From Baffinella frigidus (lineage: Eukaryota; Cryptophyceae; Cryptomonadales; Baffinellaceae): a stretch of 40,189 bases of DNA. Position numbers and translations under genes: made by a program. Below the pieces are notes generated by a model, which saw nothing but the letters and a program-made list of their open reading frames with translations, had not been told where the DNA came from and searched no databases. The DNA lies in contig MU646322.1 of assembly GCA_026770585.1 (NCBI GenBank), positions 501,341-541,529 on the forward strand, given 5' to 3'. Positions 25,733 to 30,646 of the stretch are shown piece after piece (position 1 is the stretch's first letter; each line of letters opens with the position of its first letter).

Positions 25733-26572
25733 TTACAGCGCCGCGAACGCGGCGTTGTTGTAGATGCTGGTTTGGGGTGTGCGGTTTAGGGTTCAGGGTT
25801 CAGGGTTTAGGGTTTAGGGTGTAGGGTTTAGGGTTTAGGGTGTAGGGTTTAGGGTGTAGGGTTTGGGGCTTCGAGATTAGGGTTTAAACATGGCCGCGTT
25901 GGCGTCGGCGCCCGGGATGGTTTGGGGTTTGGGGTTTGGGGGTTTGGGGTTTGGGGTTTGGGGTGTAGGGTGTAGGGTGTATGGTGTAGGGATTAGAGTG
26001 CAGGGCTTAGGAATGCCACAAGCTAATGCCAGCGGACCCCATAGCCTACGACAGGAACCCCCCCTCCTCCTACGACGTTTAAAACAACAAGGTCTTTATG
26101 AGTTGTAGGAGGGGGGCTCCTACCGTAGGCAATCCGTAGGCTCTAAGTACCTCGCTGGCGCTAGCTTTTCGCGTGATTAGGGTTCAAACCTGGTCGCGTC
26201 GGCGTCGGCGCCCGGGATGGTGGCCGCCGCGCCGGTGGAGTAACCCCTGGTTTCGGGTTTCGGGTTTAGGTTTCGGGTTTCGGTCTAGGGTTTAGGGTTT
26301 AGGGTTTAGGGTTTGGCGGTGTGGGGTTTCGGTTTAGGGTTTAGGGTTTAGGGTTCACAATCCAAGTTTGGTACGCCGTTTCGGGTGTAGGATTTTTACT
26401 GGGAGATGGGCGCGTATGTGGAGGCCGGGAAGGTCCAGCCCGCGGAGCAGGGCGCGCCAGCGCCCGAATCGCCGCCGCGGCACGAGTGCATGTCCATCAC
26501 GTTGAAGTCGGTCGCGCCATCCATGGCGTCCAGCCCCGCCGAGGAGAGGTAGGCGCCGTAGGCCGGGTCCAT
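25733..26572 (-). CDS. Small conserved protein, gene M (unrecognised family), three exons
   Basis: Minus-strand exons 26400-26572, 26190-26246, 25733-25766 (173 + 57 + 34 bases) give 87 residues and a TAA stop. The ATG sits in an ideal context (CTCGCCATGG). The product begins MDPAYGAYLSSAGLDAMDGA and contains DMHSCRGGDSGAGA-PCSAGW, SQGYSTG and SIYNNAAF. Two cysteines, acidic N-half, no signal peptide or membrane segment. The paralog at 27463-30646 matches at 57 of the first 80 residues by hand count, without gaps. Donors are CCA|GTAAAA and ACCAG|GTTTGA; both acceptors are AAACCAG at the end of telomere-like sequence. Intron 1 (153 bases) is almost entirely telomere-like repeats; intron 2 (423 bases) also holds a family I MITE. 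Function unknown. Confidence 0.8.
25767..26010. repeat. Telomere-like arrays in gene M intron 2
   Basis: GGTTTAGGGTTCAGGG, TGTAGGG and TTTGGGG units at 25767-25880 and 25919-26010, split by a duplicate exon edge. The array supplies the acceptor CCCCAAACCAG of exon 3. Confidence 0.92.
25885..25921 (-). pseudogene. Truncated duplicate of gene M exon 2 end
   Basis: Minus strand CCATCCCGGGCGCCGACGCC, then AACGCGGCCATGTTTAAACC, copies the last ~35 bases of exon 2 and the start of intron 2. The donor CAG|GTTTGA has become CAT GTTTAA and is lost. A telomere-like array and a family I MITE separate it from the functional exon. Confidence 0.8.
26011..26176. mobile_element. MITE family I, inside gene M intron 2
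   Basis: GAATGCCACAAGCTAATGCC left and CGCTGGCGCTAGCTTTTCGC right; core GACGTTTAAAACAACAAGG. Confidence 0.9.
26248..26398. repeat. Telomere-like array forming gene M intron 1
   Basis: TTTCGGG and TTTAGGG units from 26250 to about 26356. The intron is little more than this array plus 40 bases. Confidence 0.9.
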
Positions 26573-26611
26573 GGCGAGAGACTGCGCAGCAGCGGGCGGT
26601 TCAGGGAGAAA

Positions 26612-26662
26612 GTGATGGGGAGGGAGAGGGAGAGGGAGAGGGAGAGGGGAGAGGGATAGCGG
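26612..26662. repeat. (GGGAGA)n microsatellite
   Basis: GGGAGAGGGAGAGG units, in the 5' flank of gene M. Confidence 0.92.
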
Positions 26663-26824
26663 GAGACGTTGTAACCATCTGGAGGGCTGCTGGGGGTTCG
26701 ACGCAGCGGTCTGGAGTATGCGTGCCGTTCCGACCCACACGCGCAACGCCAGGGCTGGGGTTTCTCTGGGAATTGCTGCGGTTTGGCGTCCTCGCGATCA
26801 AGGAGTGCAACGAAAAGTGCGAGG

Positions 26825-27260
26825 AACGCAGTCGTCTGGCCAACACCCAGACTCTATCCTGAGGGCAGTGAGGCCGCGGGCCCTGTAGCCGCCGCTGTCC
26901 CACGCCGTGGCACAGACTACACTTCTCGTGCTCTCATTCCTGCCGTGGCTCATCAGGCTGGGGTGGGAGGAGAGACCCGGAAGGGAACGATAGCGAAGAG
27001 CATTTCGCAGGATGGCCGTTCAGATTCAGTCAACTCGCCTGGATTTTTCGCTAAAATCGAAAATGTCGGGTTCCCGCCGCCTTCTGCCCCACAGTTGTTG
27101 ATCTAGGGGTTCCCTGGCTTCTTCCTAGCGATCTCTTGATGGGCTAGAGGATGCTGCTCGCAGAGCTTTGTGCCTGCGAAAGATGGGGTCTGCGAGCATG
27201 TCGTGTGTGGGAAACTACCTTTGACATTGCTGTCTCTTCCGGCATCTCCACTTCCAGCCT
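26825..27260. repeat. Long repeat R, left (direct) arm
   Basis: Runs from CGCAGTCGTCTGGCC through GGGCAGTGAGGCCGCGGGCC and GTGGCTCATCAGGCTGGGGT to GACATTGCTGTCTCTTCC. The reverse complement is at 28553-29014, with high similarity over roughly 400 bases. It lies between the divergent genes M and P, so it also covers their shared upstream region. Confidence 0.85.
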
Positions 27261-27462
27261 CTTTCTCTTCGTGTTTTTGCGGTGAAAGAGATGCAATGCA
27301 ACGCCACCATATGCGCTGTTGCTGTCTCCAGGCGCGCTGTCGGTGGCAACACTCCACGCTCTGTGCCTGCCGAGACTGGAGTTTGCGGGGCGCGGGAAGT
27401 TTGCCAGATTCGCGAGCTCTGATCGAGCTTCTCGCTGGCAGATGCTTTTCTCGGTGCTTATT

Positions 27463-30311: not shown

Positions 30312-30350
<39 letters not shown>

Positions 30351-30353
30351 ATC

Positions 30354-30406
<53 letters not shown>

Positions 30407-30416
30407 ACCCCCAACC

Positions 30417-30455
<39 letters not shown>

Positions 30456-30646
30456 ATCCTCAACCCCAAACCCCAAACCCCAAACCCCAAACCCCAAACC
30501 CCAAACCCTAAACCCTGAACCCCAAACCCCAAACCCTGAACCCTGAACCCTAAACCCCAAACCCCAGAACCCAGACCCCAAACCCTAAGACCTAAACCCT
30601 GAACAGGGACCCGGACTCGATCTACAACTCCGTAGACTTCAAGTAG
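27463..30646 (+). CDS. Small conserved protein, gene P (paralog of gene M), four exons
   Basis: Exons 27463-27517, 27623-27717, 29146-29213, 30607-30646 (55 + 95 + 68 + 40 bases) join in frame to 85 residues ending SIYNSVDFK and TAG. It starts MDPAYTAFLANNGLDKMDGA and holds DMHSCRGGDSGAGA-ACSAGW, SLYSPASQGYSTG and DPDSIYN, aligning without gaps to gene M. Splice signals: GACG|GTATGC, GCGCAG-type acceptor, GCG|GTGAAC, CCCTCCAG acceptor, GTGGG|GTAAGT, and TGAACAG acceptor at the end of a 400-base telomere-like array. If exon 2 is not spliced, a TAG at 27732 would give a 54-residue form. Intron 2 holds a B-type MITE and the right arm of repeat R; intron 3 holds two decayed copies of exon 3. Function unknown. 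Confidence 0.78.
27844..27935 (+). pseudogene. Duplicate of gene P exon 2 end and intron start
   Basis: GGGTTCGTTGCGGTGACCCC and ACCTCC...GAGGTGGAATCGGGGAG parallel 27707-27785 (GACTTCGTTGCG|GTGAACACC ... GAGGTGGAATCAGGGAG). The donor copy is still GT. Confidence 0.65.
27945..28191. mobile_element. MITE with B-type tips containing a nested MITE
   Basis: Outer ends CTAGCTCTGCCTGAGGTTTA, then CTGGCTCGTCCT, inverted at the right. Inner element 27981-28104 has CCACGCCAGA / TCTGGCGTGG tips like family W. Flanks GTCGCTGCCAGGCTGTGTTG at 27791 and 28194 are also duplicated. Confidence 0.85.
28553..29014. repeat. Long repeat R, right (inverted) arm
   Basis: Inverse of 26825-27260, from GGCTAGCTGGAAGAGCC to GGCCAGACGGCAGTCGTCG. 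It lies in gene P intron 2. Together the arms enclose exons 1 and 2 of gene P in about 2.2 kb. Confidence 0.85.
29388..29676 (+). pseudogene. Two decayed copies of gene P exon 3
   Basis: 29388-29440 and 29631-29676 copy the 3' half of exon 3 (GGCTACTCGACCGGCCCGGC to the donor). Both are preceded by GGATTTGTAG and followed by GTAAGC or GTGAGC, so both keep splice-like ends. Their lengths (53 and 46) would break the frame if included. A fourth, very short trace (GGGTTGTAGAGG) is at about 29762. Confidence 0.75.
29472..29584. mobile_element. MITE family K, copy 3
   Basis: CCGCTTTCGAGCGGAGAGG left, GTCGCTCAAGAGCGG right; AAGGCCAAATTCTGGCCTT centre. It splits the spacer between the two exon-3 copies. 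Confidence 0.8.
29686..29752. repeat. CCCTAAA array in gene P intron 3
   Basis: CCCTAAACCATAAACC units; begins nine bases after the donor-like GGTGAGC of the exon-3 copy. Confidence 0.85.
29917..30002. mobile_element. MITE family G copy
   Basis: AAGTGGCGAGGCGGTCAAAA left, ACTCGCCACTTGGGAT right; GGTCAAAATTGACC and CCCTACGGTAGGG inside. Confidence 0.7.
30059..30190. mobile_element. MITE family B copy
   Basis: CTAGCTCTCCTTCACTCGGG left; TTTGCGGTACAAATTCGTCA core; the right end is degraded after AAATAGACTTTCC. Confidence 0.8.
30206..30604. repeat. CCCTAAA/CCCTCAA telomere-like array, 3' end of gene P intron 3
   Basis: About 55 units, mostly CCCTCAA in the middle and CCCCAAA toward the end, finishing CCCTGAACAG, the acceptor of the last exon of gene P. 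Confidence 0.95.

Follow-up and report, generated by a model that had tools for sequence, protein, structure and literature searches.

Two sequences, A and B, lie head to head in the window (the whole stretch of 40,189 nucleotides of Baffinella frigidus DNA that was analysed; the assembly it comes from totals 382 Mb in 1364 contigs). With a probability of about 0.82, both are protein-coding and descend from one lineage-specific gene through an inverted duplication. Gene A is on the minus strand (26572-25733), has three exons and encodes 87 amino acids. Gene B is on the plus strand (27463-30646), has four exons and encodes 85 amino acids. The two start codons are 890 bp apart. We infer that a single ancestral gene was duplicated in inverted orientation. 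Both copies would be transcribed outward from the space between the start codons, and each would yield a small, acidic, glutamate-free protein lacking a membrane stretch. Such a head-to-head pair of paralogous protein genes had been proposed in a preliminary description, and the proposal is now supported by frame-specific purifying selection, by introns that are unrelated except for simple repeats and by the lack of any family match. The pair adds a two-member protein family that has no recognised relative and for which the sequence evidence of coding is good.

The gene models and the features around them are listed in Table 1. The joined coding sequences of A and B are open and divide evenly into codons (88 and 86, respectively, including the stop). 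All five introns have GT-AG boundaries. Exon 1 of A runs from codon 1 to the second base of codon 58. The coordinates given in the preliminary description proved exact, with stop codon TAA closing A at 25733 and stop codon TAG closing B at 30646. A 14-bp tandem repeat of 13.7 copies (30652-30843) begins six bases past the last base of the B stop codon.

Table 1. Positions, in the window, of the exons, introns and copies of genes A and B and of the telomere-like arrays.
Feature	Position	Strand	Remarks
Gene A exon 1	26400-26572	-	ATG at 26572; open frame; donor GTAAAA; homology to B exons 1-3
Gene A intron 1	26247-26399	-	GT-AG, 153 nt; telomere-like array 26249-26356 reaches the acceptor
Gene A exon 2	26190-26246	-	Encodes GYSTGAAATIPGADADAT
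Gene A intron 2	25767-26189	-	GT-AG, 423 nt; telomere-like arrays 25769-25991 reach the acceptor
Gene A exon 3	25733-25766	-	SIYNNAAFAAL; stop TAA at 25735-25733
Partial copy of A exon 2 tail, within A intron 2	25890-25921	-	tblastn, 8/9 residues, E 1.2
Intergenic stretch between the A and B ATGs	26857-27240	+	Has an inverted copy in B intron 2
Gene B exon 1	27463-27517	+	Starts with ATG
Gene B intron 1	27518-27622	+	GT-AG, 105 nt
Gene B exon 2, conserved core	27623-27717	+	Matches A over 90 nt (84% at the DNA level)
Gene B intron 2	27718-29145	+	GT-AG, 1428 nt
Inverted copy of 26857-27240, in B intron 2	28583-28971	-	81%; 44 nt identical at its end
Gene B exon 3	29146-29213	+	From joined exons and own-genome protein search
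Gene B intron 3	29214-30606	+	GT-AG, 1393 nt; telomere-like arrays 29684-29749, 30207-30604
Exon-3 copy 3b, in B intron 3	29390-29440	+	Similarity spans two frames
Exon-3 copy 3c, in B intron 3	29633-29676	+	AG and GT flanks; in-frame exon 3 substitute
Gene B exon 4	30607-30646	+	Protein end DPDSIYNSVDFK; stop TAG at 30644-30646
Telomere-like arrays (TTTAGGG and variants)	652-703, 2152-2636, 6579-6706, 8176-8415, 13774-13857, 25769-25991, 26249-26356, 29684-29749, 30207-30604, 36962-37408, 37634-37905

When the two proteins were compared by BLASTP, 58 of 84 residues were identical (69%) and 66 of 84 were positive, with zero gaps. The shared start MDPAY and the ungapped alignment described earlier were both confirmed, and the identity counted by hand (57 residues over 80) becomes 58 over 84. 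The most conserved block comprises residues 17-46, of which 26/30 are identical, and it includes H29, C31 and C42, kept in both proteins. Similarity in the tails consists of GYSTG, SIYN and F.

To the surviving frame the preliminary description had given more weight than we do. It argued that a reading frame preserved across five splice junctions would not be expected by chance. The joined frames are indeed open, but the argument is weaker than claimed because the junctions had been picked to preserve the frame, and the pattern of substitutions is better evidence. Between A and B, 179 of the 252 aligned coding bases are shared and 73 differ, and the differences fall 21, 19 and 33 times on codon positions 1, 2 and 3. 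The same kinds of change were put at random sites of A or of B in 5000 simulation runs. In this simulation, which ignores neighbour effects and repeated hits, 45.0 ± 2.9 amino-acid differences were expected with the changes placed on A and 46.1 ± 2.9 with the changes placed on B, compared with 26 observed. Not one of the 5000 runs in either direction gave 26 or fewer. The BLOSUM62 sum was 312, against 167 ± 21 and 158 ± 20 in the simulations of the two directions. In a six-frame test of the joined sequence, the proposed frame had z -6.5 and the remaining five had -1.3, 1.2, -2.0, -3.7 and 1.2; the frame with z -3.7 is antisense and contains stops in A and in B. The pN and pS values were 0.24 and 0.46. 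At the level of this sequence comparison, the results show frame-specific purifying selection on A and B, clearest in codons 1-57. The third-position excess is confined to these codons (13, 11 and 24 differences at positions 1, 2 and 3) and is absent from codons 58-84 (8, 8 and 9), which leaves amino-acid similarity, frame and splice signals as the support for the last junctions.

Similarity at the DNA level was examined by blastn with low-complexity masking, using 25000-32000 as query against the whole window. A and B share one exon stretch (26429-26518 and 27622-27711, 84%). Among the matches listed, the introns of A and intron 3 of B are alike solely in telomere-like simple repeats. Similarity running equally through the introns had been named beforehand as the finding that would speak against the genes. 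Because the DNA similarity of A and B is one exon stretch and their introns are alike in simple repeats only, the similarity does not run in this way. Intron positions are coding bases 173 and 230 in A and 55, 150 and 218 in B, with none in common; the last intron of A and that of B could be the same one with its boundaries moved by four codons. Copies 3b and 3c both correspond to the second part of B exon 3. Spliced instead of exon 3, copy 3c would yield an in-frame protein of 77 residues. Copy 3b changes frame, whereas the A and B exons proper align without an indel over 84 codons. Shorter pieces of the repeat at 26857-27240 are present at 31425-31487 and 24395-24433.

A recently dead pair would likewise retain older marks of selection, and one of the two could be live and the other a young pseudogene or fragment whose selection signal predates its death. 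This would agree with the exon copies and repeats within both genes, with the tail that carries no codon signal and with the different intron positions. We consider it unlikely, as both frames are intact, with no indel or stop over the 84 common codons and with GT-AG at every intron.

Slightly less probable again is that A and B are parts of a longer protein of known kind, with other exons missed. The frames of A and B are both open 5′ of the proposed ATG, and B has a second in-frame ATG at 27442, from which the protein would gain the hydrophobic residues MLFSVLI, so an upstream exon or leader is possible; more exons could also hide in the long introns. However, a translated comparison of both sides gave, among the matches listed, no extra common exon other than repeats, and a Pfam match is absent. 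The protein similarity begins at MDPAY and spans from the ATG to just short of both stop codons. As a point where similarity starts, MDPAY favours the proposed ATGs without proving them.

The surroundings are rich in tandem and dispersed repeats, and a non-coding or repeat-derived duplication might resemble genes by chance. This reading is very improbable because of the substitution test; moreover, it is the exons that are similar, and in one frame the changes are biased towards synonymous ones.

We searched several collections for relatives of the two proteins. Protein B used as query against the protein database returned no candidate, and an alignment of A and B returned 11 candidates, none of them at E ≤ 1. 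No Pfam family matched A or B at E up to 10, nor did any NCBIfam or PHROGs family at E up to 1. These profile searches bear out the earlier statement that the signature is unrecognised. PDB gave weak matches only (E 0.2 or worse), with antibody chains and a designed influenza haemagglutinin stem. Of 49 pattern stretches found in viral contigs with the A and B alignment, none was confirmed, and a degenerate DNA pattern for MHSCRGGDSG had no match there. Protein A as sole query gave no match in phages. The same DNA pattern matched prokaryote contigs once, in a Pirellulales record, with 9/11 residues common to A and B and E 6e-4 in a search of that single locus. We took this match to be chance because the locus had been selected by that very pattern; its frame is antisense to a 328-codon open reading frame. 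A literature search covering titles and abstract beginnings found no paper treating this subject.

The motif of chymotrypsin-like serine proteases is CxGDSGGP. That A and B are a fragment of such a protease, suggested by a likeness between this motif and their CRGGDSGA around C31-W46, is extremely improbable: Pfam at E up to 10 and the PDB searches contained no protease, no chymotrypsin-like profile matched, the Cys-Asp spacing is one residue too long and both proteins are far shorter than a protease domain. Just a look-alike of the serine loop is present.

The best reading, at the sensitivity used, is that A and B form an orphan, lineage-restricted family of two members. A real gene without an assigned function is a common situation among lineage-specific genes. 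In our judgement, the collections searched consist mainly of prokaryotes, viruses and unspliced predictions. Few spliced eukaryotic proteins are among them, so the searches may have overlooked a relative in another protist. An algal or protist origin of the pair is plausible. A search for the dinoflagellate spliced leader gave 1 match with 3 mismatches, compared with 0.44 expected.

In its own genome, the family was found again at its own locus. The 64 core bases used as a DNA query matched two places, A and B. With protein A there were four matching places, two in each gene; with protein B there were five, namely copy 3c, the first three exons of B and exon 1 of A. These searches returned A, B and exon copies only; further members may be hidden, because only 31,285 of 219,912 bases retrieved from outside the window could be read and the own-genome searches may face the same masking.

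The predicted A and B proteins have masses of 8.6 and 8.7 kDa and are acidic, with pI values of 4.05 and 4.16, and glutamate-free. Neither has a hydrophobic or membrane stretch; the largest 19-residue hydropathy means are 0.42 and 0.72. The working part would most likely be the central block, residues 17-46. The role we favour for its cysteines is a putative disulfide, or the binding of a metal or a partner, with the remainder of the protein flexible, a conjecture to which we give rather low odds. Single-sequence AlphaFold2 on A exon 1 alone produced no confident fold (mean pLDDT 43.8, pTM 0.12), and on this prediction a folded domain is neither supported nor excluded.

Interstitial telomere-like arrays are numerous and spread across the window. 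In three of the five introns of A and B, a CCCTAAA-like array runs up to the acceptor. These acceptors, the lack of a common intron position at 69% identity and the spare exon 3c led us to a doubtful reading, namely very fast intron turnover in which the arrays would supply introns with new 3′ ends and assist in the copying of exons. Presumed exons stand at array ends elsewhere as well, in a methyltransferase-like gene of the window and in coding-looking stretches of L021, L023 and L029. We counted the arrays ending in CAG. There were 8/39 in the readable bases, compared with 8.8% of 1792 control places (P 0.018), and 5/20 outside the window (P 0.026). The opposite, non-C-rich strand of the same arrays ended in CAG in 7/39. 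When any AG was counted, 11/39 array ends had one, against 18/39 in the reversed control. Because the opposite strand gives a nearly equal CAG count, the association of the arrays with acceptors is not established and is only a lead.

Several other features were observed in the window. Presumed exons of a SAM-dependent methyltransferase lie at about 4675-6570 (+), and the first of them starts directly behind a CCCTAAACCAG stretch. Joined by guess, these exons matched a single PDB entry at E up to 10 (7oas, E 0.047) and no Pfam family. A 370-codon open frame at 33719-34828 (+) contains a PD-(D/E)XK nuclease domain (PF13366, E 2.2e-19). Among the matches listed (7999 candidates), just one relative reached E ≤ 0.001, a JGI protein with 58% identity over 92%. 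A dispersed repeat, palindromic and MITE-like, about 120 bp long and with ends TTTCTTATGAGCGAGG, occurs within 9838-36130, where its motif has 19 matches with at most 1 mismatch, compared with 0.00 expected. A 26-base piece of this repeat was absent from the viral and prokaryote contigs searched. Runs of N are present at 10123-10587 and 20822-21051, 695 bases in total.

Like A and B, algal and protist orphan gene families are small and intron-bearing, with copies conserved within one genome. A and B also resemble them in having no relatives in the searches made. Unlike such families, A and B have no common intron position, and B has exon copies, of which 3c is an in-frame substitute. If array-driven intron turnover were shown genome-wide, A and B would be a clean case of intron remodelling between gene copies. 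A published account of Amorphochlora amoebiformis (PMC12730881) describes lineage-specific intron gain and a genome of 214 Mb with 27% GC and TAACCC telomeres. Compared with that genome, the assembly that holds A and B is larger (382 Mb against 214 Mb) and has TTTAGGG-like arrays, in contrast to the TAACCC telomeres. The likeness lies in unshared intron positions, which there differ between species and here between two copies.
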